Under the pieces are notes generated by a model. That model did no database searches. It worked only from the letters and a program-made list of their open reading frames with translations, and had not been told where the DNA came from. A program made the translations under genes and the position numbers. This document shows positions 51,354 through 64,000 of a stretch of 64,000 nucleotides of DNA, in pieces. The first letter of the stretch is position 1. Each line of letters starts with the position of its first letter. The DNA comes from Mycobacterium sp. Marseille-P9652. Lineage in GTDB: Bacteria > Actinomycetota > Actinomycetes > Mycobacteriales > Mycobacteriaceae. Where the stretch lies: contig NZ_CACRUY010000001.1 of NCBI RefSeq assembly GCF_902652685.1, forward strand, positions 248,001 to 312,000, read 5' to 3'.

Positions 51354-53984
51354 CTAACGCCGGACGGGCCGGCGGCCGTTGACGTAGTGGAACCGCGCGG
51401 CGCGCCGCCGGACGCGGTGCGCATGGCCGCGGGTGCGGTGCGGCGCCCCGGCCAGGTGTATCGGCTCGGCGTAGAACATCAGCTTGGCGAGTTCCACCAG
51501 CACCAGGTAGCTGACGACGAAGGCGCCCAGCACGGCGAAGAACTGCCACGGCAGCGGGGCAAAGCCCAGCGGCCGGGCCAGCGGCGAGAGGGTGATCGCG
51601 ACGCCGACGGCCACCACGGTCAGGCTGGTGGCGGTGAGCTGCCAGCTCGGCCGGCTCCGGAAGAACGGCACCTTGCGGGTGCGGATCGCGAAGATGATCA
51701 GCGTCTGCGTCGCAAGGGATTCCACAAACCAGCCGGTGCGGAACTCAACGGCGCCGGCGTGCAGCACGCCCAGCATCAGCCCGAAGGTGAGGAAGTCGAA
51801 CAGCGAGCTGATGGGGCCGAAGACGAGCATGAACCGGCGGATGAAGGCGACGTTCCAGTGCGCGGGCGCGTGCAGCTGCTCGTCGTCGACCCGGTCGGTC
51901 GGGATCGCCAGTTGCGAGCTGTCGTAGAGCAGGTTGTTGAGCAGGATCTGGCTGGGCAGCATCGGCAGGAACGGCAGCAGCGCCGACGCGGCGGCCGCGC
52001 TGAACATGTTGCCGAAGTTGCTCGACGTGCCCATCAGGACGTACTTGATGGTGTTGGCGAAGATCCGCCGGCCCTCGGCCACCCCGGTCGCCAGCACGCC
52101 GAGGTCCTTCTCCAGCAGCACCACGTCCGCGGCGTCCTTGGCCACGTCGGTGGCGCTGTCGACGGAGATCCCGACGTCGGCGGAGTGCAGGGCGAGCGCG
52201 TCGTTCACGCCGTCGCCCAGGAAGCCGACCGAGCGGCCGGTGCGGCGCAGCGCGGTGATGAGCCGGGCCTTCTGCTCGGGGGTGATGCGGGCGAAGATGG
52301 TGTGCCGCTGGGCGGCCTCGGCGAACTCGTCGTCGCCCAGCCCGTCCAGCTGTGCGCCGGTGACGGTGCCCTTGGACCCCAAACCGAGATCCGCGCAGAC
52401 CTTTTCGGCGACGCGCGGATTGTCGCCGGTGGCTATCTTCAGTTCGATGCCCAGGCGGGCAAGTGCGGCAAGGGATTCGCGCGCGGCGGGTTTGGGTTCG
52501 TCGGCGAAAACCAGGAACCCGGCCAGCGTCAGGCCGGCCTCGTCCCCGCCGGCGATAGCGGTCGCGCCCGGGGCGGCCCTCGTGGCCACGGCCACCACCC
52601 GGCGGCCCGCGGCGAACAGGCCCGCGAGGGTGTCGTCGGCGGCCGGCGGGGTCGAGACGCACTGTGCCATCACCTGTTCGGGCGCGCCCTTGACCACCAG
52701 CAGGCGCTGCCCGTCGTCGTCGACCAGCACCGACGTCGCGCGGCGTTCGTGATCGAAGGGCCGCACCGCGACGCGGCGGACGCCACCGACGAGTTCCTGG
52801 GAGCGCGGCGACTCCCAGAGCGCCGCGTCCAGCGGATTGGCGCTCACGCCGCCAGCTTCGGGGTCCACGTCGGAGGCCAGCAGCCCGAGGCGGCGCACCG
52901 GCTCACTGTGGCCGCCGGCCGCGTCGATCGTGTCGACCAGGCGGATCCGGCCCTCGGTCAGCGTGCCGGTCTTGTCGGTGAGCAGGATGTCGATGTCACC
53001 GAGGTCCTCGATGCACACCAGCCGCTTGACGAGCACCTTGGCCGCGGCCAGCCGCCGGGAGCCGGTCGCCAGGCTGGTGCTGACCACCGCGGGCAGCAGC
53101 TGGGGCGTGATGCCCACCGCGATCGCCAGCGAGAACAGCACGGAATCGATGACGGGCTTGCTCAGCAGCAGGTTGCTGATCAGGATGATCACGACGAGCG
53201 CGACTGCGACCTGCAGCAGCAGGTAGGAGAACTTGCGCAGCCCCACCTGGAAGTCGGTCTCCGGCGGTCGCTCGTCCAATCCCGCTGCAATGCGGCCGAA
53301 TTCGGCGTTGCGGCCGGTGGCGTACACCACACCGGTGCCCTCGCCGGCGCTGACGATCGTGCCCATGAACGCGACGTCGGTCGAGTCGGCGAGTTCGCTT
53401 CCCGCCGGCACGGCTTCCGGTGACTTCTCCGACCCGGTCGACTCGCCGGTCAGGATGCTTTCATTGCATTCCAGGCCGCTGACCTCGATCAGCCGGACGT
53501 CGGCCGGCACGGCCTCGCCCAGCGAGAGCCGGATGATGTCGCCGGGAACCAGCGCGGTGACGTCGAGCGTGACGTAAGTCCCGTCGCGGCGCACCAGCGT
53601 GTTGTGGTGCACCCCGGCGTGCAGGGCGGCGGCGGCCCGCTCGGCGCGGTACTCGTTGAGGAAGCCCAGGCCGACGCTGGCGGCCAGGATCACGCCGATG
53701 ATGACCGCCTGCATGCTGTCGCCCAGGAAATAGGAGACCACCGCGGTGCCGGCCAGCAGGATCAGCACCGCGTTGCGCAGCTGGCGGCCCAGCACCGCGA
53801 ACGCGTTGACGTGGTGGGTCCGCACGGCGTTCGGGCCGTAGCGCTCCAGCCGGGCGGCCGCCTCGGCCCCGGACAGGCCGGCGGGCGAGCTGTCCAGCCG
53901 CCGCAGCACCTCGTCGACGGGGGCGCCGGCCGCGGCCCCGGTGTCCAGGGCCGCCGTGGCGGGCCGGGCGACGTCGGCGGTCAC
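51354..53984 (-). CDS. mgtA: Magnesium-translocating P-type ATPase (MgtA-like)
   Basis: P3B-type ATPase of 876 residues importing Mg2+. It has an N-terminal domain, actuator TGES (residues 179-182), the phosphorylation site LLTDKTGTLTEG (Asp337), KGAPEQV in the nucleotide-binding domain, ATGDNPRVAEKVCADLG and the hinge FLGDGVNDALAL, so it looks active. About ten membrane helices include AIAVGITPQLLPAVV and SQILLNNLLYD. The GTG at 53984 overlaps the corA stop by 4 nt. It is third in the phoY1-corA-mgtA operon. The C-terminus has an Arg/His-rich tail. Confidence 0.93.
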   Translation of the reverse strand: MTADVARPATAALDTGAAAGAPVDEVLRRLDSSPAGLSGAEAAARLERYGPNAVRTHHVNAFAVLGRQLRNAVLILLAGTAVVSYFLGDSMQAVIIGVILAASVGLGFLNEYRAERAAAALHAGVHHNTLVRRDGTYVTLDVTALVPGDIIRLSLGEAVPADVRLIEVSGLECNESILTGESTGSEKSPEAVPAGSELADSTDVAFMGTIVSAGEGTGVVYATGRNAEFGRIAAGLDERPPETDFQVGLRKFSYLLLQVAVALVVIILISNLLLSKPVIDSVLFSLAIAVGITPQLLPAVVSTSLATGSRRLAAAKVLVKRLVCIEDLGDIDILLTDKTGTLTEGRIRLVDTIDAAGGHSEPVRRLGLLASDVDPEAGGVSANPLDAALWESPRSQELVGGVRRVAVRPFDHERRATSVLVDDDGQRLLVVKGAPEQVMAQCVSTPPAADDTLAGLFAAGRRVVAVATRAAPGATAIAGGDEAGLTLAGFLVFADEPKPAARESLAALARLGIELKIATGDNPRVAEKVCADLGLGSKGTVTGAQLDGLGDDEFAEAAQRHTIFARITPEQKARLITALRRTGRSVGFLGDGVNDALALHSADVGISVDSATDVAKDAADVVLLEKDLGVLATGVAEGRRIFANTIKYVLMGTSSNFGNMFSAAAASALLPFLPMLPSQILLNNLLYDSSQLAIPTDRVDDEQLHAPAHWNVAFIRRFMLVFGPISSLFDFLTFGLMLGVLHAGAVEFRTGWFVESLATQTLIIFAIRTRKVPFFRSRPSWQLTATSLTVVAVGVAITLSPLARPLGFAPLPWQFFAVLGAFVVSYLVLVELAKLMFYAEPIHLAGAPHRTRGHAHRVRRRAARFHYVNGRRPVRR

Positions 53985-54973
53985 AACCAGTCCCGTCGCC
54001 GGAACGTCACGTAGAGCAACGCCATCAGGACGACGATCACGGTGGCGCTCACGAGGAAGCCCGCGGGCCTGCCGAAGCCCGGATAGGGCACGTTCTGGCC
54101 GTAGAAGCCGGTGATCGCGGTCGGGACGGCGATGATGGCCGCCCAGCCGGTGAGCTTCTTCATGACGGTGTTCAGCCGGGCGTCCTGCAACGACAGGTTG
54201 GTCTCGAAAATCGTTGTGATCATGTCGCGCAACGACTCCGTCCATTCCGACACGCGCAGCACGTGGTCGTAGAGGTCGGCGTAGAGGGGGTCGAGCTCCC
54301 GCGCGGAGTCGATCTGAAGGCGGTGATGCTGAATGGAATTGACGACCTCGCGCATCGGCAGCGCCACCCGCCGCAGGTTGACCAGGTCCCGGCGCATCTG
54401 AAACGTCCTGCGCTGGAACGACCCCTGCCGCTGGGAGCTGCCGTCGAACAGCTCGTCCTCGATCGCCTCGATGCAGTCGTCCAGCGCCTCCACGGCCGCG
54501 AAGTGGCTGTCGACCACGACGTCGAGCAAGCCGTGCACCAACGCGCCCACGCCGAACTGCTGGCCGCCGATCTCGTCCCACCGCCGCGTGATCCGCCCGA
54601 TGTCGAAGTCGGGCGTCAGGCGCACCGTGATCAGGCCCCGCGGCAGGACGAACGCCGAGATGCGGCGCATCGTGAGCATCCGCGGCGCGTCCTCGGTGGT
54701 CTCACCGGCGACGTCGACGGCGTAGACGGTGAAGAAGGTGTGGCTGGCGTACGCGGTCGACTTGACGCGCTCGGCCTCCGCGACGGCGTCCTCGACGGCC
54801 CAGTGATTCAAACCGAGTTCCTCCGCCAGGCCGCACAGCGTGTCGTGGTCTGGGTCGCAGAGGTCCACCCACACCAAAACGCCCTCCTGCGCGAGGTATT
54901 CGGAGACGTCCTCGAAGGCGAAATCGGCCTGCGGCTCACCGGAACGCCACACGCGGCCCTGAATGCTCGGCAC
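53981..54973 (-). CDS. corA: CorA-family divalent cation transporter with GQN motif
   Basis: A 330-residue CorA-type channel. A large cytoplasmic funnel with long helices (VNSIQHHRLQIDSARELDPL, SLQDARLNTVMKKLTGWAAI) ends in two membrane helices. The pore signature normally reading YGMN is YGQN (residues 291-294), in GFYGQNVPYPGFG, so the selectivity-filter Met is Gln. The C-terminal RRRDWL basic end is kept. The GTG start is 10 bp after phoY1 and its stop overlaps mgtA (GTGA). It probably moves Mg2+ or another divalent ion in step with MgtA. Confidence 0.9.
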   Translation of the reverse strand: MPSIQGRVWRSGEPQADFAFEDVSEYLAQEGVLVWVDLCDPDHDTLCGLAEELGLNHWAVEDAVAEAERVKSTAYASHTFFTVYAVDVAGETTEDAPRMLTMRRISAFVLPRGLITVRLTPDFDIGRITRRWDEIGGQQFGVGALVHGLLDVVVDSHFAAVEALDDCIEAIEDELFDGSSQRQGSFQRRTFQMRRDLVNLRRVALPMREVVNSIQHHRLQIDSARELDPLYADLYDHVLRVSEWTESLRDMITTIFETNLSLQDARLNTVMKKLTGWAAIIAVPTAITGFYGQNVPYPGFGRPAGFLVSATVIVVLMALLYVTFRRRDWL

Positions 54974-54983
54974 GCCCCCGCCC

Positions 54984-55649
54984 TCAGTAAGTCGAAATCT
55001 CGTCTTCGGCGGGCAGATCCCCGGTGACCGCGAAGATGACGCGCCGCCCGACCTCCACGGCGTGGTCGGCGAAGCGCTCGTAAAACCGCCCCAGCAAAGC
55101 GGTTTCGACGGCCGCGTGGATGCCGTGCGCCCAGTGGTCGTCCATCAGCACCCCGAACAGCTGCCGGTACAGGTCATCCATCGCGTCGTCCTGCTCGTGC
55201 AGCCGGGCGCCCTGCGCCGGGTCACGCGAGATCAGCACCTGTTTTGCGCTCTCCCCCATGGCAATTGCCACCTTACCCATCTCGGCGAAGCACGCGCGGA
55301 CGTCCTCGGGGAGTGGGTGCGCCGAATACTCACGCCGCGCGATCTTCGCGATGTGCACGGCCAGCGCGTCCATCCGCTCGGTGTCGGCGAGGATCTGGAA
55401 GCCGCTGAAGACCGCCCGCAGGTCCCCGGCCACCGGCTGCTGCAGGGCCAGCAGGTCGAAGGCCTGGCGCTCGGCGTGCGCGCGCATCTCAACGATCCGC
55501 TCGTGGCCACCGATCACCGCTTCCGCCGCGCCCGTATCCGCTTCCAGCAGCGCCTGGGTCGCGCCCTTCATCGACTCCCCGGCCAGCCCGCACATCTCTC
55601 CGAGTTGCACGGCCAGCTCGACCAGCTGCTGTTGGTACGCGGTTCGCAT
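54984..55649 (-). CDS. phoY1: PhoU-family phosphate signalling protein PhoY1
   Basis: A 221-residue PhoU protein made of two three-helix repeats with the metal-binding motifs [18 protein letters not shown] and [14 protein letters not shown]. It mediates inhibition of the phosphate two-component system (SenX3-RegX3) when phosphate is sufficient. Its length and sequence match remembered PhoY1 (Rv3301c), and synteny near lpqC agrees. A GGGAGG site precedes the ATG. Being first in an operon with corA and mgtA is unusual and links phosphate with Mg2+ supply. Confidence 0.92.
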
Positions 55650-55856
55650 CGCACAAGCCTCCCTAGGGCGCGCGTCACACGCTAGAGACCGCCGTGACAT
55701 TTGCACAAGTGACGAAAGGCATCCAAGGAGAGCCGCAACGACTCCTGCCCCGCACGTGGCCGGCCGGTTAGTCTCCACTCAGCCAAAGGGTTTGCCGAAC
55801 GTTAACTCAACTCCGGTCATGGTGGCCGCCTGCTTGCCCGAAAATCGCACAAGGCC
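55650..55856. promoter_or_regulatory. Divergent promoter region of phoY1-corA-mgtA and ctpI
   Basis: This 207-bp spacer must drive both operons. Visible elements are a direct repeat of GTGAC around ATTTGCACAA and an AACGTTAAC near-palindrome close to the ctpI start. No DosR-type or other known box was recognised. Confidence 0.35.
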
Positions 55857-58800
55857 GTGAAACGAATTCTTACCGTCCCCTTCACCGCCGCCCTGCTGGG
55901 CGGCAACGCCGCGCTGAACGTGGGCAGGTCGCTGGCCCGAGCCACGCCGGACGTGCCGGCACTGACCCGCGCGGTGGCGGGCGTGGCGCTCGAGGCCGTC
56001 GGCGGGGCGCCGGCGCGACGCTGCAGCACCAACGGTCCGCGGCGCTGGATCGAGGTGCGCGGCCTTGACGGCCCGTACGCCCCGGCCATCGCCGCCGGCG
56101 TGCTGGCGGCGGCGAGGTCGGCCCCCGGCGTGCGCCAGGCGTACCTCAACCACACCCTGGCGCGGCTGGTGGTCACCGTCGACGAGGACTCGGACAAGGT
56201 GCCTTCGGCGGCCGAGCTGTGCCGGGTCGTCGCCGACGCCGAACGCCACGAGGACCCATCGACGCCCCGGACCCACCCGGCGAGCCTGCCCGGGGACGAC
56301 GCGCTGCTGGTCGGCCGGATCATCGCGGCCACGGCCGCCACTGTGGGCCTTGGCGTTTCGCTGACCGGCAGCCTGCTGCGCCTGCCCCGGCTGCCCGACC
56401 TGGTGGCCGTGCCGCCGACGCTGGCCGACCACGTGCCGCGGGTGCGCCGGGAGCTGGACCGGCGCCTCGGTCCCGAGGGGGCCGACGTGCTGTTCGGCTT
56501 CGTCAACGCCGCGACCGCCGCTCTGACGCTGTCGCCGGCGGCCGCGGCCGCGGAGGCGGCCACGCGGGCGATGCTGGTGGTCGAGGCGTGGAACGGCCGG
56601 GTCTCGTGGTCCCGGCAGGAACCGGCGCTGGGCGGCCGGGCGGTGCCCGACGACGCGGCCGTGGCGCCGCGCGGCTTTCCCGCGCCGCCCGACGGGCCTG
56701 CGGAACGCTACGCCGACCGCGCCGGCGCGGCCGGGCTGGCCGCCGCCGCCGCGGTCGGACTGCTGTCGCTCAACCCCGACGCGGCCGGGGCGGCCGCGCT
56801 GGCCGCCGTCCCCAAGCCCCTGCGCACCGTCCGCGAGGCGTTCGGCTGCGCGATGACCCGCGGGCTGTCCACCCGCCACGACGCGCTGGTGCTGCGGCCC
56901 CGGGCCCTTCGCACCCTCGACCGCGTCGACGCGATCATGATCGACCCGCGGGCGCTGTACACCGACGACTTGACGGTGACCCGCGTTCTGGGACTGGACA
57001 ATTCGGCCCGGGCCCACGCTTGGGAGGCGGTGCGCGCCGCGCTCGACACCGACGGGCTGGAGCCGGGGTGGCACCGGCTGGCCGACATCCCCGGCGCCGG
57101 CGACACCGGCGAAGCCCTGATCAGCCCGGTGCGCGACCCGTTCGCGGCGGCGGTGCTCACCGAAGCGCGGCAGGCACAGCCGCGCATCTATTCCCTCGAC
57201 GACGACGGATTGCGTTCCCTCGCACAGGGATTCGATCAACTGTACCCGGACGACGGCGGGTCGACCGACCACGCCGTCGCGGCGGCCGTCGCCGAACTTA
57301 AGGCCGGCGGGGCCACCGTCGCGCTGTTGACCACCTCGGCGATGCGGGCCACACACCGCGCCGACGTCACGATCGGCGTGCTGCGCGACGGACATCTCCC
57401 GCCGTGGGGCGCCGACATGGTGGTGTCCGACCTCACCGGCGCCTGGCGGGTGCTGCACGCGCTGCCCGCCGCGCGCGCCGCCACCGGCGGCGCCGTGCGG
57501 CTGTCGGCGTCGGCGTCGGTGATCGGCGCGCTGATGCTGATTCCCGGTGTGCCGGGACGCAGTTCGACGTCGACCAATGTCGGCATGGCCGCCAGCCTGT
57601 GGTTCGGGTACCGGGCCGGCGTCAAGGTCTTCTCCGACCCGTTGCCGGAACCGGAAACCACGCACGACTGGCACGGCCTGCCGGTGGCCGAGGTGCAACG
57701 CCTGCTCGCCCGGCCCCCCGACGAACACGCTGGGCAGCAGGCGGTTCCGGTGCGCGCGCTGCGCGGCGCCACCGTTGGTTTCGTCGGGGCCTCGTGGGGA
57801 CTGCTCCGCGACTTCGCCGAGGAGATGAGGGCGAACCTCGCCGATCCCATCACCCCGCTGCTGGCCACCGGCGCGCTGGCCAGCGCGCTGCTCGGTTCCC
57901 CGCTCGACGCCGTCCTCGTCGGCAGCGTGCTGCTGGCCAACGCCGCGCTGTCGTCGGAACAGCAGCTGCACGCCGAACGGATCCTCAATCGCCTGCTGGC
58001 CGTGCAGGAACCGCCCGCGCGGCGCCGGATCGGCCCCCCGAACGCGCGGCGCACCGAGAAGGTGCCCGCCACCCGGCTGCGCCCGGGCGACGTCATCGAG
58101 CTGCACGCCGATGAGGTGATCCCTGCCGACGCCCGGCTGATCTACGCCCTGAACGTCGAGGTCGACGAGGCCACGCTCACCGGCGAGTCGCTGCCGGTGG
58201 CCAAGCAGACCGAGCCCACGCCGGGCGCCCCGCTGGCCGAGCGGACCTGCATGCTCTACGCGGGGACGACCATGGTGGCCGGCACGGCGGTGGCCGTGGT
58301 GACGGCGGTCGGCTCTCGATCGGAGATGCGCCGCGCGCTGGCGATGGCGCCGCGCAAGATGCAGGAGATCGGGCTGCAGCGCCAGCTGCAGCGGGTGACG
58401 CGGCGCGCGTTGCCGTTCAGCATGGCCGGCGGAAGCCTGGTGGGGGCGCTCAGCGTCGCGCGGGGCACCCCGCTGCGCGAGGCGGTCTCCAGCGCGGTCA
58501 CCCTCATCGTCGCCGCCATCCCGGAGGGCCTGCCGCTGGTGGCCACGCTGGCCCAGCAGGCCGCGGCGCGCCGGCTCACCGGCGCGTCGGTGCTGATCCG
58601 CAACGCCCATTCCATCGAAGCGCTGGCCCGGCTGAACGTGGTGTGCTTCGACAAGACGGGCACGCTCAGCGAGAACCGGCTGCGGGTGAAGTCGGTGCAC
58701 CCGGTGGACGGCTTCACCGCGGGCCAGGTGCTGGACGCGGCGGTGAGCACGAGCTACGCGATGCACAGCCACCGCGTCGAGCACGCCACCGACGACGCGA

Positions 58801-60245
58801 TCACGCAGGCGGCCGACGACCCGTCGCTGCGGGGTGACGGGTCGCGGGCACGGCACCGGCAGACGCGCGACGCGTTCCTGCCGTTCCAGTCCGGGCGCCC
58901 GTTCGCCGCCGCGCTCGTCGGGACCCGGCTGACCATCAAGGGCTCCCCCGAGGTCCTGGCGTCGGCCCTGCGCCGGGCTGACGGCCCGGTGGAGCGGCGC
59001 ATCGACGAGATGGCCGCGGACGGCCTGCGGGTGCTCGCCGTGGCCGAGCGCGAGCTCACCGCGGAGCAGGCCGCGGCCGCGGCGGCGGATCCCGACTTCC
59101 TGGAAGGCCTCTGCACGTCGGAGCTCACGCCGGTCGGGCTGCTCGGCCTGGCCGACACGCTGCGCCCGAAGGCCGCCGACGTGCTGGACGAGCTGGCCCG
59201 ACGCGACATCGGCGTCCGGCTGATCACCGGCGACCACCCGGCGACCGCGGCCGTGATCGCCCGCGAGCTGGGCATCGACGTGACCGCCGAGCAGGTGGTC
59301 ACCGGCAGCGACTGGGAGGCGATGTCGGCGGACGACCGCGCGCGGACGGCCGCGTCGCGGCAGGTGTTCGCCCGCATGACGCCCGAGCACAAGATCGACG
59401 TGGTGCAGACCCTGGAGCGGGCCGGGATGGTCACGGCCATGGTCGGCGACGGCGTCAACGACGCCGCGGCGATCCGGGCGGCCAGCGTGGGCATCGGGGT
59501 GGCCGCGCGGGGCAGCGACGCGGCGCGCACCGCCGCCGACGTCGTGCTGCTCGACGAGCGGATCGAGGCGCTGCTCGACGCCCTCGACGAGGGTCGCCAG
59601 CTGTGGCGGCGGGTGCAGTCGGCGGTGTCGATGCTGCTGGGCGGCAACCTCGGCGAGGTCTCCTTCGCGCTCATCACCACAGTCCTCACGGGGCGTTCGG
59701 TGCTCAACGCCCGCCAGATGCTGCTGGTCAACATGCTCACCGACGCGCTCCCCGCCGCCGCACTGGCCGTGAGCCCGCAGATCGGCACGGCCGAGGTCGA
59801 CCGCGACGAGGCGGCGATGTGGCGGGCGATCGCCATCCGCGGCGCGGCGACGACCGCCGGCGCCACGCTGGCGTGGACCATGGCCATCGCCACCGGCACC
59901 CCGTGGCGTGCCGGGACGGTGTCGCTGATCGCGCTGGTCGGCACGCAGCTCGGCCAGACGCTCGTCGACTCGCGCGCCCCGCTGGTGCTGCTGACGTCGG
60001 TCGGGTCCCTCGGGGCCCTCGCTCTGGTGGTCAGCACCCCCGGGCTCAGCCAGGTCTTCGGCTGCACGCCGGTCGGGCCCGTCGCCTGGGCCCAGGGCCT
60101 GTCGGCCGCCGCCGCGGCCAGCCTGCTGTCGGCCGTCGCACCCGGGCTGCTGCTGAGCGCCTCGCAGGCCGCACAACGCCGCGTCGCCCCTGATTTTCCC
60201 GCCCAGGTCGCGGCCGGACCGTCAAGGCCTTACATTCCGAGATGA
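55857..60245 (+). CDS. ctpI: Large cation-transporting P-type ATPase, CtpI-like
   Basis: A 1462-residue P-type ATPase with the long N-terminal extension typical of mycobacterial CtpI. The extension contains an HMA-like segment (WIEVRGLDGPYAPAIAAGVL, RQAYLNHTLARLVVTVDE) and a degenerate ATPase-like half. The catalytic half is complete: TGES (775-778), VVCFDKTGTLSEN with Asp932, the KGSPE nucleotide-binding motif, LITGDHPATAAVIARELG and MVGDGVNDAAAI. The ion is unknown. The GTG at 55857 is taken as the start. The DUF5994 gene follows 19 bp downstream. Confidence 0.9.
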   Translation: MKRILTVPFTAALLGGNAALNVGRSLARATPDVPALTRAVAGVALEAVGGAPARRCSTNGPRRWIEVRGLDGPYAPAIAAGVLAAARSAPGVRQAYLNHTLARLVVTVDEDSDKVPSAAELCRVVADAERHEDPSTPRTHPASLPGDDALLVGRIIAATAATVGLGVSLTGSLLRLPRLPDLVAVPPTLADHVPRVRRELDRRLGPEGADVLFGFVNAATAALTLSPAAAAAEAATRAMLVVEAWNGRVSWSRQEPALGGRAVPDDAAVAPRGFPAPPDGPAERYADRAGAAGLAAAAAVGLLSLNPDAAGAAALAAVPKPLRTVREAFGCAMTRGLSTRHDALVLRPRALRTLDRVDAIMIDPRALYTDDLTVTRVLGLDNSARAHAWEAVRAALDTDGLEPGWHRLADIPGAGDTGEALISPVRDPFAAAVLTEARQAQPRIYSLDDDGLRSLAQGFDQLYPDDGGSTDHAVAAAVAELKAGGATVALLTTSAMRATHRADVTIGVLRDGHLPPWGADMVVSDLTGAWRVLHALPAARAATGGAVRLSASASVIGALMLIPGVPGRSSTSTNVGMAASLWFGYRAGVKVFSDPLPEPETTHDWHGLPVAEVQRLLARPPDEHAGQQAVPVRALRGATVGFVGASWGLLRDFAEEMRANLADPITPLLATGALASALLGSPLDAVLVGSVLLANAALSSEQQLHAERILNRLLAVQEPPARRRIGPPNARRTEKVPATRLRPGDVIELHADEVIPADARLIYALNVEVDEATLTGESLPVAKQTEPTPGAPLAERTCMLYAGTTMVAGTAVAVVTAVGSRSEMRRALAMAPRKMQEIGLQRQLQRVTRRALPFSMAGGSLVGALSVARGTPLREAVSSAVTLIVAAIPEGLPLVATLAQQAAARRLTGASVLIRNAHSIEALARLNVVCFDKTGTLSENRLRVKSVHPVDGFTAGQVLDAAVSTSYAMHSHRVEHATDDAITQAADDPSLRGDGSRARHRQTRDAFLPFQSGRPFAAALVGTRLTIKGSPEVLASALRRADGPVERRIDEMAADGLRVLAVAERELTAEQAAAAAADPDFLEGLCTSELTPVGLLGLADTLRPKAADVLDELARRDIGVRLITGDHPATAAVIARELGIDVTAEQVVTGSDWEAMSADDRARTAASRQVFARMTPEHKIDVVQTLERAGMVTAMVGDGVNDAAAIRAASVGIGVAARGSDAARTAADVVLLDERIEALLDALDEGRQLWRRVQSAVSMLLGGNLGEVSFALITTVLTGRSVLNARQMLLVNMLTDALPAAALAVSPQIGTAEVDRDEAAMWRAIAIRGAATTAGATLAWTMAIATGTPWRAGTVSLIALVGTQLGQTLVDSRAPLVLLTSVGSLGALALVVSTPGLSQVFGCTPVGPVAWAQGLSAAAAASLLSAVAPGLLLSASQAAQRRVAPDFPAQVAAGPSRPYIPR

Positions 60246-60264
60246 CCAACGAGCAGGAAGACAC

Positions 60265-60876
60265 ATGGAACTCGCAAATCGATTGCAGCTCAAGCCCTAT
60301 CGGACGGCGTCGGAGCACATCGACGGCGCCTGGTGGCCGCGGTCGGCGAACCTGGTGGACGAGCTGCCGGCGTTATCCGCCGCGGTGTCGGACCGGCTGG
60401 GCCAGGTCGTGATGGTGGGCTATCGCCGCAACGGCTGGCAGGAGGCGCCGGCCCTGGCCGAGATCGGCGGCCACACCGTGGAATTGCTCGGGTTCACCAG
60501 CGACGAGCCCACCAGCATCATCCTCATCGGCGAGGACGGCCGGCACCTCACGCTGCACGTGATCCGGCCCGACGCGGGCGAGGAGGCGGCCCGCCGGGCC
60601 CTGGACGAGGCGGGGGCGCGCGCCGACGCCGACGCCGCGCCGGCCGGCCGCGCCGCCGCCGCCAAGTCACTGGCCGATGTCGCGGACAAGCTGGCCCGCC
60701 ACGAGGGCACCGACGACGAGCAGCGGATCGCCCAGATCAGGCACTGGTGCGACGACGCCGCCGGCCAGTTCGTCGACGCGCCGGTCCAGACCTTCGTGCC
60801 CATCCTCGTCGAACACATCGTCCGCAACCGCATGGTCGAGTCCCGCAGGCAGGCCGCGTCAGCCACGCGGTCGTGA
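60265..60876 (+). CDS. DUF5994 family protein
   Basis: A 203-residue actinobacterial protein. The conserved N-terminal half contains RLQLKPYRTASEHIDGAWWP and RSANLVDELPALSAAVSDRL, with YRRNGWQEAPALAEIGGHTV and TSIILIGEDGRHLTLHVIRP after it. The C-terminal half is helical and charged (AKSLADVADKLARHEGTDDE). It looks cytosolic; function unknown. An AGGAAGA site precedes the ATG. Its stop codon overlaps the start of the degenerate P-type ATPase (GTGA), so the two are made together, downstream of ctpI. Confidence 0.85.
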   Translation: MELANRLQLKPYRTASEHIDGAWWPRSANLVDELPALSAAVSDRLGQVVMVGYRRNGWQEAPALAEIGGHTVELLGFTSDEPTSIILIGEDGRHLTLHVIRPDAGEEAARRALDEAGARADADAAPAGRAAAAKSLADVADKLARHEGTDDEQRIAQIRHWCDDAAGQFVDAPVQTFVPILVEHIVRNRMVESRRQAASATRS

Positions 60877-63404
60877 ACCCCGACCGCGGGCCGGGCACCG
60901 ACCCGGACCGCGGACTGACTGCGCAGGAGGCCGCCCGCCGCCTCGCCGCGGTCGGCCCCAACGACATCGAGCGCGCGGCGCCGTTGCCTGCTTGGAAGAG
61001 GCTGGCGGCGCAGTTCCGCAGCCCGCTGATCTACCTGCTGGCGGCCGCGCTGGTCGCCTCGCTCGGGGTCTGGGTGGCCGAGGGGGCCACCGGCTGGCCG
61101 GTCGACGCGGTGGTGATCGGCGTCATCCTGGTGCTCAACGCCGTGCTCGGGTACGTGCAGGAGTCCCGCGCCGAACATGCCGTCGACGCCCTGGCAAGGA
61201 TGACGGCGGCGACGGCGACGGTGGTCCGCGACGGCACGCGCCGCGAGGTTCCGGCCCGAGATTTGGTGCCGGGCGATGTGCTGCTGCTGGCGGAGGGCGA
61301 CGCGGTGCCCGCCGACGCCCGACTGCTGTCGGCGGCCGGGCTGGAGGTGTCCGAGGCCGCGCTGACGGGGCGCAGCCAACCCGTCACCAAGACCGCCGGG
61401 AATTCGGCCGATGACACGTCCATGGTCTGCATGGTTTTCAAAGGCACCGCGGTCGCCCGGGGCGCCGGGCGCGCCGTCGTGACGGCCACCGGGATGCGGA
61501 CGCAGACCGGGCAGATCGCCGGGCTGGTGCGCGCGGTCGGCCACGAGCCGACCCCGCTGCAGCGCGAGGTGGCGAGGGCCAGCCGGGTGCTCGGGATCGC
61601 CGTCGTCGTGATCGCCGTGGTGGTGATCGCGACCGTCGTGTTCGTCTACGGGATCCACGACGCGCACGGCGCGGTCACGGCCGTGCTGCTGGGGGTGTCG
61701 CTGGCCGTGGCGGCCGTGCCGGAGGGGCTGCCCGCCATCATGTCGGTGGTCCTCGCCGTCGGGATGCGGCGGATGGCCGGGCAGAACGCCATCGTCAGGG
61801 AGCTCGCGTCGGCCGAGACCCTGGGGTCGGCGTCCGTCATCTGCTCCGGCAAGACCGGCACGCTGACCACCGGGGAGCTGGCGATCGTCCGCGTCGTCAC
61901 CCCGGTGGGCCGATTGACGATCCCCGCCGGCGACGCGCCCGCGGCCCCGGCCCTGGCGCGGCAGGTGGCACTGGTGCTGGACGCCGGCGGCGCGGCCGAC
62001 GGCAGCGAGCCGATCCGGGCGGCTTTCCGGGCGGCCCGGCGCGGCGCGACCGCCGCCGGCGACGTCGCGGGCCCACTGGCTGGCGACCCGGCGGCGGTGG
62101 TCGCCCGCTGCGCATGCCTGCGGGCCGGCGATCGGCTGGCGCCGCTCGACGAGCCGGCCCGGGAGGCGATCCTGGGCGACGCCGAGCGGCTGGCTCGCGA
62201 CGCGCTGCACCCGGTCGCCGTCGCGCACCGCTCCCCGGAGGGCGACCTGGTCTACCTGGGCATGGTCGGCATCACCGACCCGCCGCGTCCCGAGGCGGCC
62301 GCGGCCATCGCCGACGCACACCGCGCCGGGGTCAAGGTCGTGATGATCACCGGCGACCACCCGCGCGCGGCGGCGCGCATCGCCCGCGAGCTGGGCATCG
62401 AGGCGCGGGAATCGGCGCTGTCCGGCGCCGAACTCGAGGCCCTCGACGACGACCAGCTGCGCGAAACCGTGCGCCGCCACTCGCAGTTCACTCAGGTCAA
62501 CCCGGTGGACAAGCTGCGAATCATCGAGGCACTGCAGGCCGACCATGAGATCGTCGCGGTCACCGGCGAGGGCATCAACGACGCGCCGGCGCTCAAGTCC
62601 GCCGACATCGGCATCGCGATGGGCCGGACCGGCACCGACGTCGCCCGGGAGGCGGCGAACATGATCCTGGCCGACGACAACTTCGCGACCATCGTCGCGG
62701 CCATCCGCGAGGGCCGGGGCATCTTCGCCAACATCAAGAAGTCGCTGCGCTACCTGCTGTCGTCGAACATGGGCGAGATCTTCACCGTCTTCTTCGGTGT
62801 CGTGCTGGCCGGCCAGATCGGCCTGTCGCAGGGCGGCGCCATAACGCTGCCGCTGCTGGCGACACAGATCCTGTGGGTCAACCTGCTCACCGACGGCGCG
62901 CCGGCGCTGGCGATGGGCGTGGACCCGCAGACCGAAGAAGTGATGGGCCGGCCACCGCGGGCGAGGTCCGAGCGGGTCATCGACGGGCGGATGTGGAACA
63001 ACATCGTGCTGATCGGCGCCGCGGTGGGGGCCGCGACGCTGGTCACGATCCACCTCTACGCGCCCACCGGCCCGATGCCGTCGTCGCTCGACACCGCGCG
63101 CACGGCGGGGTTCACGGTGCTGGTGATCAGCCAGCTGTTCAACACGATCAACGCCCGCAGCGAGACCCGGAGCGCGTTTCACCGGTTCTTCGCCAACGGC
63201 TGGCTGTGGGCGGCGATCGCGGTGTCGGCGCTGCTGCAGGTGGGCGTTGTTCAGCTGCCGTGGCTCAACACGGCCTTCACCACCACGCCGCTGTCGCCGG
63301 GCCAGTGGCTGGTGTGCATCGTGGTGTCCAGCAGCGTGCTGTGGGTCAGCGAGGCGCGCAAGCTCATCCTGCGGCTGCGCGACCGGCGGCCATCAGGGCG
63401 GTGA
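60873..63404 (+). CDS. P-type ATPase homologue with all catalytic motifs altered (pseudo-pump)
   Basis: An 843-residue protein with the fold of CtpF/PacL-type P-type ATPases: an N-terminal cation-ATPase domain, helices 1-2 (SPLIYLLAAALVASLGVWVA), helix 4 (AVAAVPEGLPAIMSVVLAVG) and the C-terminal six helices (LLATQILWVNLLTDGAPALA). The key catalytic residues are changed. The actuator TGES is TGRS (Arg167). The phosphorylation site DKTGT is GKTGT (Gly326). The hinge GDGxND is GEGIND (Glu566). The nucleotide-binding domain is only ~110 residues and lacks KGAPE. The reading frame is intact and coding character normal, so it is probably expressed. The GTG overlaps the DUF5994 stop. It cannot form the aspartyl-phosphate; a channel, sensor or regulatory partner of CtpI is possible. 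Confidence 0.9.
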   Translation: MNPDRGPGTDPDRGLTAQEAARRLAAVGPNDIERAAPLPAWKRLAAQFRSPLIYLLAAALVASLGVWVAEGATGWPVDAVVIGVILVLNAVLGYVQESRAEHAVDALARMTAATATVVRDGTRREVPARDLVPGDVLLLAEGDAVPADARLLSAAGLEVSEAALTGRSQPVTKTAGNSADDTSMVCMVFKGTAVARGAGRAVVTATGMRTQTGQIAGLVRAVGHEPTPLQREVARASRVLGIAVVVIAVVVIATVVFVYGIHDAHGAVTAVLLGVSLAVAAVPEGLPAIMSVVLAVGMRRMAGQNAIVRELASAETLGSASVICSGKTGTLTTGELAIVRVVTPVGRLTIPAGDAPAAPALARQVALVLDAGGAADGSEPIRAAFRAARRGATAAGDVAGPLAGDPAAVVARCACLRAGDRLAPLDEPAREAILGDAERLARDALHPVAVAHRSPEGDLVYLGMVGITDPPRPEAAAAIADAHRAGVKVVMITGDHPRAAARIARELGIEARESALSGAELEALDDDQLRETVRRHSQFTQVNPVDKLRIIEALQADHEIVAVTGEGINDAPALKSADIGIAMGRTGTDVAREAANMILADDNFATIVAAIREGRGIFANIKKSLRYLLSSNMGEIFTVFFGVVLAGQIGLSQGGAITLPLLATQILWVNLLTDGAPALAMGVDPQTEEVMGRPPRARSERVIDGRMWNNIVLIGAAVGAATLVTIHLYAPTGPMPSSLDTARTAGFTVLVISQLFNTINARSETRSAFHRFFANGWLWAAIAVSALLQVGVVQLPWLNTAFTTTPLSPGQWLVCIVVSSSVLWVSEARKLILRLRDRRPSGR

Positions 63405-64000
63405 TCGCCTCCACGTCGGCCGGTCCCGGCAGGCCCCAGTCCGGCTTGTAGTCGAACAGCTCGTCGGCCCGCACGGTCCGCAGGTCGACGTCGAGCAGCT
63501 CGAACGCGTCGAGCGGAACGAGGGCGGGGTGCGCGTGGCCGCACGCGCGGGCCAGGCACAGCAGCTCGAAGCGCAGGGTGGCCAGGTAGTTGGCGCAGCG
63601 CACAGACTTCAGCGCCGGGTCCAGCCCGTGCTGCAGCCACGCCGACTGCGTGGCCACGCCCGACGGGCAGCGGCCGGTGTGGCAGCGCTGCGCCTGGATG
63701 CAGCCGATGGCGAACATCGCGGTGCGGGCGACGTTGATCATGTCGCAGCCCATCGCCATCGCCAGCAGCGCGTTCTCCGGCAGGCCCAGCTTCGCCGACC
63801 CGACGAACACCACGTCGTGATGCAGGCCCGCCTCGGCGAACGCGCGGTACACCCGCGGGAACGCCCACTTGAAGGGCAGCGCGACGTGGTCGGCGAAGAC
63901 CAGCGGGGCCGCGCCCGTGCCGCCCTCGCCGCCGTCGACGGTGACGAAGTCCACGCCCGTCCCGGTGCGGGCCATACGCGCCGCCAGCTCGGGCCAGAAC
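63364..64000 (-). CDS. Glutamate-synthase-like FMN protein (5' end cut by window edge)
   Basis: The C-terminal ~210 residues of a stand-alone FMN-binding glutamate synthase domain protein (GltB alpha-subunit-like). FVTVDGGEGGTGAAPLVFAD is the FMN phosphate loop. MINVARTAMFAIGCIQAQRC followed by HTGRCPSGVATQ carries the C-x5-C-x4-C ligands of the [3Fe-4S] cluster. Such proteins usually lack the glutaminase domain and use unknown substrates. The start lies beyond the window. Its 3' end overlaps the convergent pseudo-pump gene by 41 bp. Confidence 0.88.
   Translation of the reverse strand, partial: FWPELAARMARTGTGVDFVTVDGGEGGTGAAPLVFADHVALPFKWAFPRVYRAFAEAGLHHDVVFVGSAKLGLPENALLAMAMGCDMINVARTAMFAIGCIQAQRCHTGRCPSGVATQSAWLQHGLDPALKSVRCANYLATLRFELLCLARACGHAHPALVPLDAFELLDVDLRTVRADELFDYKPDWGLPGPADVEAITALMAAGRAAAG

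Follow-up and report, generated by a model that had tools for sequence, protein, structure and literature searches.

Can a P-type ATPase be maintained by selection after it has lost the residues with which it forms and breaks its phosphoenzyme? This question is raised by a gene in a 64,000-nucleotide stretch of the genome of Mycobacterium sp. Marseille-P9652 (RefSeq assembly GCF_902652685.1, contig NZ_CACRUY010000001.1, positions 248,001 to 312,000 of the forward strand; hereafter the window). The gene encodes a homologue of calcium pumps of the P2A (SERCA/PacL) type, hereafter the dead pump, which lacks the phosphorylatable nucleophile, the TGES glutamate, the GDG aspartate and the core of the nucleotide (N) domain. 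Its cation ligands are intact, it is under purifying selection, and it stands last in the gene order CtpI, DUF5994, pseudo-pump. Comparative analyses indicate that it is very probably a selected P-type ATPase that does not pump, and on balance they favor a regulatory, calcium-responsive role for this conserved pseudo-pump. Both pseudo-kinases and pseudo-phosphatases are familiar, and the Post-Albers cycle is the established mechanism of P-type ATPases.

The reading frame comprises 843 codons with zero internal stops. Membership of the P2A group is indicated by the full domain set (E1-E2_ATPase, HAD, Cation_ATPase_N/C), with Pfam matches above gathering scores to Cation_ATPase_C (1.9e-52), E1-E2_ATPase (1e-46), Hydrolase (7.7e-19) and Cation_ATPase_N (1.3e-14), and by the PEGL motif in membrane segment M4 and calcium-site residues in M5, M6 and M8. 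The top sequence relatives in the PDB are Listeria LMCA1 (7.7e-135) and SERCA1 (2.3e-129), and the scores against the NCBIfam calcium-ATPase equivalogs fall below the cut-offs (577.4 vs 798.3 bits for the PMR1 type, 567.8 vs 703.4 for the SERCA type). The motifs of a functional pump are all replaced: DKTGT by GKTGT, TGES by TGRS and TGDGxND by TGEGIND, and the KGAPE-type nucleotide-binding core is deleted or replaced (Table 1). An earlier note on this DNA had described an intact frame with these three changes and an N domain without KGAPE; translation places R167, G326 and E566 at the codons that it named, and alignment agrees that the KGAPE core is missing. Its statement that all catalytic residues are lost was too strong, as K327, T328, T493 and D495 of TGD, K547, N569 and D570 persist. 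The N domain is reduced as the note stated, but not to half its size: KTGT and MITGD are 165 residues apart in the dead pump, 167 in genome G195 and 192-199 in the remaining 17 dead copies, whereas seven active relatives have a spacing of 230-240 (G and L numbers denote genomes and loci, respectively). A similarity search of the same genome returned 14 matching places, read as ten P-type ATPase genes including the dead pump, and DKTGT and GDGxND are intact in every one of the nine others. The second-best match covering most of the dead pump is 36% identical, and thus no canonical close paralogue was found in this genome.

Table 1. Features of the dead pump and of its neighborhood in the window (positions counted from the first letter of the window).
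Feature	Position	Strand	Basis or remark
Dead P2A (SERCA/PacL-type) calcium-ATPase homologue	60873..63404	+	843 aa, GTG start; translation, Pfam, PDB sequence search
R167 (of TGRS), replacing Glu of the TGES phosphatase motif	61371..61373	+	Translation, motif alignment
M4 PEGLPA, with E284 matching Glu of the LMCA1 PEAL motif, intact	61719..61736	+	LMCA1 alignment; Glu in 20/20 GKTGT rows
GKTGT, Gly326 in place of the phosphorylatable Asp (Gly codon 61848-61850)	61848..61862	+	20/20 in clade
Shortened N (nucleotide) domain without KGAPE	61908..62237	+	Alignment with 18/19 dead copies; spacing in all 19
MITGD of P domain, intact	62343..62357	+	Motif alignment
GEGIND, Glu566 (codon 62568-62570) for the Mg-binding Asp; N569 and D570 kept	62565..62582	+	Translation, alignment
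M5 SSNMGE, N632/E635, intact	62760..62777	+	SERCA alignment
M6 NLLTDG, N670/T673/D674, intact	62880..62897	+	SERCA alignment
M8 E764, intact	63162..63164	+	SERCA alignment
DUF5994 protein; stop overlaps the dead-pump GTG start	60265..60876	+	Pfam PF19457 5.1e-33
CtpI-like P-type ATPase, intact TGES/DKTGT/GDG	55857..60245	+	19 nt upstream of the DUF5994 gene
PhoU-domain protein, divergent from CtpI	54984..55778	-	
CorA-like Mg transporter	53981..54973	-	
MgtA-like P-type ATPase, intact DKTGT/GDG; start approximate	51354..53980	-	
Glutamate-synthase-domain gene, 3' side of the locus, extends beyond the window end	63364..63999	-	

Among 297 genomes of the genus, a protein search at E <= 1e-150 recovered homologues in 21, comprising 17 GKTGT genes and four active pumps. 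The pattern GKTGTLT, which would overlook holders with a residue other than glycine, matched 21 of 396 genomes, 20 times in this gene family and once in a 94-aa frame without P-type motifs, and the reversed pattern used as control matched none. GKTGT, GEG and the shortened N domain occur together in 19 of the 20 homologues; a combination of GKTGT and GEG common to 19 genomes is not attributable to chance or sequencing error. None of these 19 full orthologues carries intact DKTGT/GDG at the locus, an arrangement that the earlier note had regarded as a sign of a decaying pseudogene. The note had also suggested looking for conservation of the G/R/E triplet: the glycine and the glutamate are present in 19/19, but the TGES position is not fixed (three copies have R, 11 have L and five, including one with TGEG, have E), the glutamate having been lost in 14/19. 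The 20th GKTGT homologue, in G384, retains TGES, GDGVND and a full N domain and has the D-to-G change as its sole loss, so that the motifs were lost stepwise. A protein tree of 30 rows requires one D-to-G change and unites the 20 GKTGT rows in a single clade (support 97/94), within which G384 branches first, and the active pumps of G185 and G037 form the sister pair (90/89). For the tree and the codon fits, the out-of-frame N-terminal part of the M. genavense copy (G076) was removed, and this copy is absent from the amino-acid count below. The simplest order of events would be loss of the nucleophile, then of GDG and the N-domain core together with a change of locus, and then of TGES in some lineages; the tree does not settle the order along the long stem. 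A scan of a named collection, which overlaps the genus set, yielded at least 118 stretches: 94 are frames that lack P-type motifs, and the other 24 encode P-type ATPases, 13 of them from mycobacteria, 7 from cyanobacteria and 4 from other sources. Among the matches listed, the 13 Mycobacterium records include M. scrofulaceum (two), M. parascrofulaceum, M. genavense, M. ahvazicum and M. europaeum.

Ligand positions were matched by alignment to SERCA in M5, M6 and M8 and to LMCA1 in M4, and E284, N632, E635, N670, T673, D674 and E764 are what we take to be E309, N768, E771, N796, T799, D800 and E908 in SERCA numbering. All seven positions matching SERCA calcium ligands are invariant in 20/20 GKTGT rows; among seven active relatives, the E764 position is E in five and G in two. 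K327, T328, TGD, K547 and D570 are retained in 20/20 GKTGT rows and N569 in 19/20, as might be expected if the protein were still an ATP-driven pump using another phosphorylation site or energy source. Such a pump is very improbable, given that the nucleophile is gone in 20/20, that the N domain is shortened and GDG changed in 19/20, and that the TGES glutamate is lost in 14/20.

Selection on the gene was estimated as the ratio of nonsynonymous to synonymous substitution rates (dN/dS) with our own codon model of the GY94 type rather than with PAML. The ratio is 0.094 over 22 rows. With four branch classes (log-likelihood -24457.8 vs -24466.8 for one class), it is 0.095 in the dead clade, 0.083 on active branches and 0.060 for G384 and the stem above it. 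Across the same 16 species (all holders except G001, G100 and G076), the dead gene (0.091) and CtpI (0.092) have similar values, and the values are 0.150 for DUF5994 and 0.134 for PhoU (15 of these species). Five close pairs of dead genes range from 0.061 to 0.138. A decaying pseudogene or an assembly error could find some support in the absence of the gene from relatives, in a frameshift in M. genavense and in a raised dN/dS on the stem (see below); however, 18 of the 19 orthologues are fully open, the same changes recur in 19 genomes and dN/dS in the clade is about 0.09, far from the value near 1 that the earlier note had associated with decay. Decay is therefore largely refuted and highly improbable, and the selection for a non-pumping role that the note had proposed gains support from this ratio and from the lack of intact-motif orthologues at the locus (0/19).

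Constraint differs among the domains of the dead clade, with dN/dS of 0.028 for P1, 0.053 for M3-M4, 0.059 for P2, 0.079 for M5-M10, 0.098 for A, 0.121 for the N-terminal/M1-M2 part and 0.19 for N. In an amino-acid count that avoids synonymous saturation, raw dead/active ratios of change are 1.68 in the N domain and 1.16 in A, compared with 0.86-0.88 in P and 0.78-0.90 in the membrane parts, and A and P together relative to membrane give 1.13 (95% interval 0.91-1.42). Thus the P domain, no longer open to phosphorylation, does not change measurably more freely than the membrane domain. Codon-model ratios of 1.7-1.9 pointed to A and P domains less constrained than in active pumps, but this is not claimed here, because the active set appears saturated at synonymous sites and the amino-acid count gives no confirmation. 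The domain pattern bears on the possibility of a passive calcium carrier or leak, in which the intact-site membrane domain, released from its phosphorylation gate, would slowly exchange cations down their gradient (uniport) and so supply or vent calcium. The invariant calcium ligands tested and an M3-M10 region that changes no faster than in active pumps are consistent with a carrier, yet a leak by itself needs no P domain, and the P domain changes as slowly as the membrane parts; this explanation is unlikely.

In the window, the genes follow the order MgtA-like(-), CorA(-), PhoU(-), CtpI(+), DUF5994(+), dead pump(+) and glutamate-synthase-domain gene(-). The 19-nt gap and the stop/start overlap suggest that CtpI, DUF5994 and the dead pump are probably read as one transcript, and the C-terminus of the DUF5994 protein is an MSMEG_6209-type three-helix bundle dimerization domain (NCBIfam NF046112, 1.4e-9). 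The order of these three genes is conserved in 19/19 holders, the linkage expected of a regulatory subunit of CtpI. In G185 and G384, the pump adjoins CtpI and is read divergently from it, and the best CtpI match of G037 is on a separate contig. The conserved, operon-like order is also what a dominant-negative or chaperone-like subunit would predict, one pairing physically with CtpI or the DUF5994 protein and for which bound calcium is irrelevant, and PcrP, a HAD-superfamily protein without catalysis, offers a precedent, being reported to act through binding partners (PMC12632274). However, such a subunit leaves the invariance of the seven tested calcium-ligand positions unexplained, and CtpI exists without the dead pump, so that this role is rather doubtful. 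As separate observations, M. genavense (L184 3297-10906 (+)) shows frame breaks, representing decay or draft errors, in the genes for both CtpI and the dead pump; two-piece tblastn matches were also seen for DUF5994 in G062 (L170 6690-7285), CtpI in G100 (L175 11719-16292) and CorA in G038 (L178 1924-2909).

A similar gene evolved independently in some cyanobacteria. Among the matches listed, seven cyanobacterial genomes carry a GKTGT P-type ATPase: Chlorogloeopsis fritschii PCC 6912, PCC 7702, Fischerella muscicola, Nostoc sp. 106C, Amazonocrinis nigriterrae, a Mastigocoleus metagenome-assembled genome (MAG) and Pleurocapsales LEGE 06147 (loci L241-L247, derived from L100, L114, L132, L134, L143, L149 and L158). 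Their frames span 921-1024 aa, and the other six proteins are 64-81% identical to that of Chlorogloeopsis. TGE is replaced by TGV, TGI or TGA in 7/7, and PEGLP, SSNxGE, NxTTDG and GDG are all retained in 7/7; the M8 glutamate is missing in some, with RSQHD and RSARD in two. A joint tree, from which one of 16 loci (L255) without a KTGT frame was left out, places the cyanobacterial GKTGT rows in one clade (SH-aLRT 100) beside the active G423 pump, so that the D-to-G change occurred twice. A DKTGT paralogue is present at 46-48% identity in 6/7 of these genomes, and the seventh (G423) has one at 59%. Further GKTGT cases were noted singly. A Desulfotomaculaceae MAG (L118 686-3454 (-)) has an open 923-aa P-type homologue with GKTGT, TGKS and GSGIDD and no PEGL, and a Microvirga roseola plasmid contig (L122 1-2385 (+)) carries a GKTGT P-type ATPase that retains KGAPE and GDGVND, its N-terminal part lying beyond the locus. 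GKTGT P-type fragments were found in a proteobacterial MAG and an Afipia MAG.

Without a nucleophile and an N-domain core, the Post-Albers cycle should not run: the aspartyl-phosphate would be neither formed nor hydrolyzed, and ATP would not be held normally. We infer from sequence that the protein is unable to pump and that its membrane domain binds calcium or a similar cation at the intact sites. The occupied or empty state of these sites might be relayed to the retained A and P domains, which would move with the membrane domain, and the dead pump, as a calcium sensor within the CtpI operon, could thereby adjust CtpI or another membrane partner. A selected gene with a broken engine and intact calcium sites, of a kind that evolved independently in cyanobacteria, probably has a role other than pumping. 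Calcium sensing coupled to adjustment of a membrane partner is most likely that role, with the passive carrier as its main rival; a regulatory or sensory role with CtpI in particular is possible and is proposed tentatively.

Several results weigh against this reading. The gene is dispensable, being absent beside CtpI, and without a strong match at E <= 1e-150, in 11/11 inspected relatives, chosen from the best CtpI matches lacking the dead gene; near CtpI, ten of these have the glutamate-synthase gene and seven have DUF5994. CtpI-type matches (paralogues included) occur in 160/297 genomes, compared with 21 for the dead-pump homologue, indicating that CtpI does not need the dead pump, and its occurrence without the dead pump in relatives makes an obligate partnership less likely. 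The CtpI tree unites G058 with the 19 holders in one clade (98), in which G058, nested among holders, has no dead pump; it probably lost the gene secondarily, once. The 19 holders as the sole clade on that tree were rejected (p 0.0045), as G058 falls within. The M. genavense copy is frameshifted, as is CtpI there. A raised dN/dS of 0.197 on the branch leading to the 19 dead copies means that a relaxed phase may have come first. In the cyanobacterial clade, dN/dS is 0.153 vs 0.094 for six active paralogues, indicating a constraint that is weaker yet clear. Structure prediction of the dead pump, from a shallow alignment, reached a mean pLDDT of only 34.9.

An improbable but more specific scenario is a two-input switch, in which calcium in the membrane sites and a non-covalent phosphate or phosphoryl ligand in the P-domain pocket would together impose an E2P- or E1-like conformation and thereby gate CtpI or a passive flow of calcium. 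In the pocket proposed for this ligand, the aspartate is lost and K327, T328, TGD, K547, N569 and D570 are kept, and a connection to phosphate would agree with the phoU gene that lies divergently next to the operon. If true, the switch would be a former pump turned receptor that has arisen at least twice, in mycobacteria and in cyanobacteria.

Compared with known systems, the dead pump shares with PacL, SERCA and CtpF the whole architecture, PEGLP, the calcium-site residues and the P-domain scaffold (M. tuberculosis CtpF itself was not in the alignment), but differs in lacking the phosphorylatable aspartate, in the changed GDG aspartate, in the shortened N domain and in loss of the TGES glutamate in 14/19. 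The active sister pumps of G185 and G037 are 63-64% identical to it and have DKTGT, TGES, GDG and a full N domain intact; the G185 pump also lies beside CtpI but is divergent from it and not downstream of DUF5994. The cyanobacterial clade resembles the mycobacterial one in the D-to-G change, the lost TGE and the kept cation motifs, and differs in its independent origin and retained GDG. Human TMEM94/ERMA has a P-type fold without TGES and GDG and with DKQGI for DKTGT, and showed no ATPase activity in one study (PMC12134183), and another group reports the aspartate to be necessary for Mg uptake (PMC13322241); unlike the dead pump, it is eukaryotic, retains the aspartate and has a positively charged entry path. 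The apicomplexan guanylate cyclase PfGCbeta is described as retaining a degenerate P4-ATPase domain (PMC6592433), which, in contrast to the dead pump, is a fused domain of the lipid-flippase type in a protist. A 2014 survey counted 22 of 9,634 P-type sequences (17 bacterial) without exact DKTGT and read the variants as possible sequencing errors, non-functional or highly specialized proteins; its available part contains no analysis of a conserved clade, selection or locus (PMC3896382). The mainly open literature searched yielded no published conserved bacterial clade of catalytically dead P-type ATPases, and an earlier mention is possible. The claim of the earlier note that such a protein had not been described thus holds for mycobacteria in the literature searched, but not more broadly, given the isolated DKTGT variants printed in 2014 and the eukaryotic TMEM94/ERMA.

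Within that literature, a bacterial cation pump that is catalytically dead yet kept by selection is not well known. The clade forms a graded series from an active pump (G185) through loss of the nucleophile only (G384) and loss of the N-domain core and GDG (19 species) to additional loss of the TGES glutamate (14/19), and the cyanobacterial clade adds an independent case with nucleophile and TGE lost and GDG kept. This series makes the question of how a P-type ATPase may function without ATP directly testable. The pair of CtpI and pseudo-pump also gives a handle on CtpI, because no ion had been assigned to CtpI as of 2022 (PMC9180918).

Other observations concern the surroundings. In the N-terminal half of CtpI, a segment at 56925-56969, RVDAIMIDPRALYTDDLTV, is similar to a degenerate version of the P-type sequence around DKTGTLT, giving CtpI the look of a protein with a fused dead half; for this half, Pfam gave no match, NCBIfam only chance-level matches and structure prediction, from a shallow alignment, a mean pLDDT of 36.1. 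A scan of the window for DosR-type boxes gave 2 matches against a chance mean of 10.18, fewer than expected. A span of about 16 kb (51354-63404 and just beyond the window end) contains four P-type ATPase genes: MgtA-like, CtpI, the dead pump and a 788-aa DKTGTVT frame (G000:C1:313300-314694). In addition, a short frame like VGAS...CSGKTGTLTA recurs in L050-L167 in many Acidobacteria, Intrasporangiaceae and other contigs, and probably comes from a conserved unrelated gene read in a different frame or on the opposite strand.

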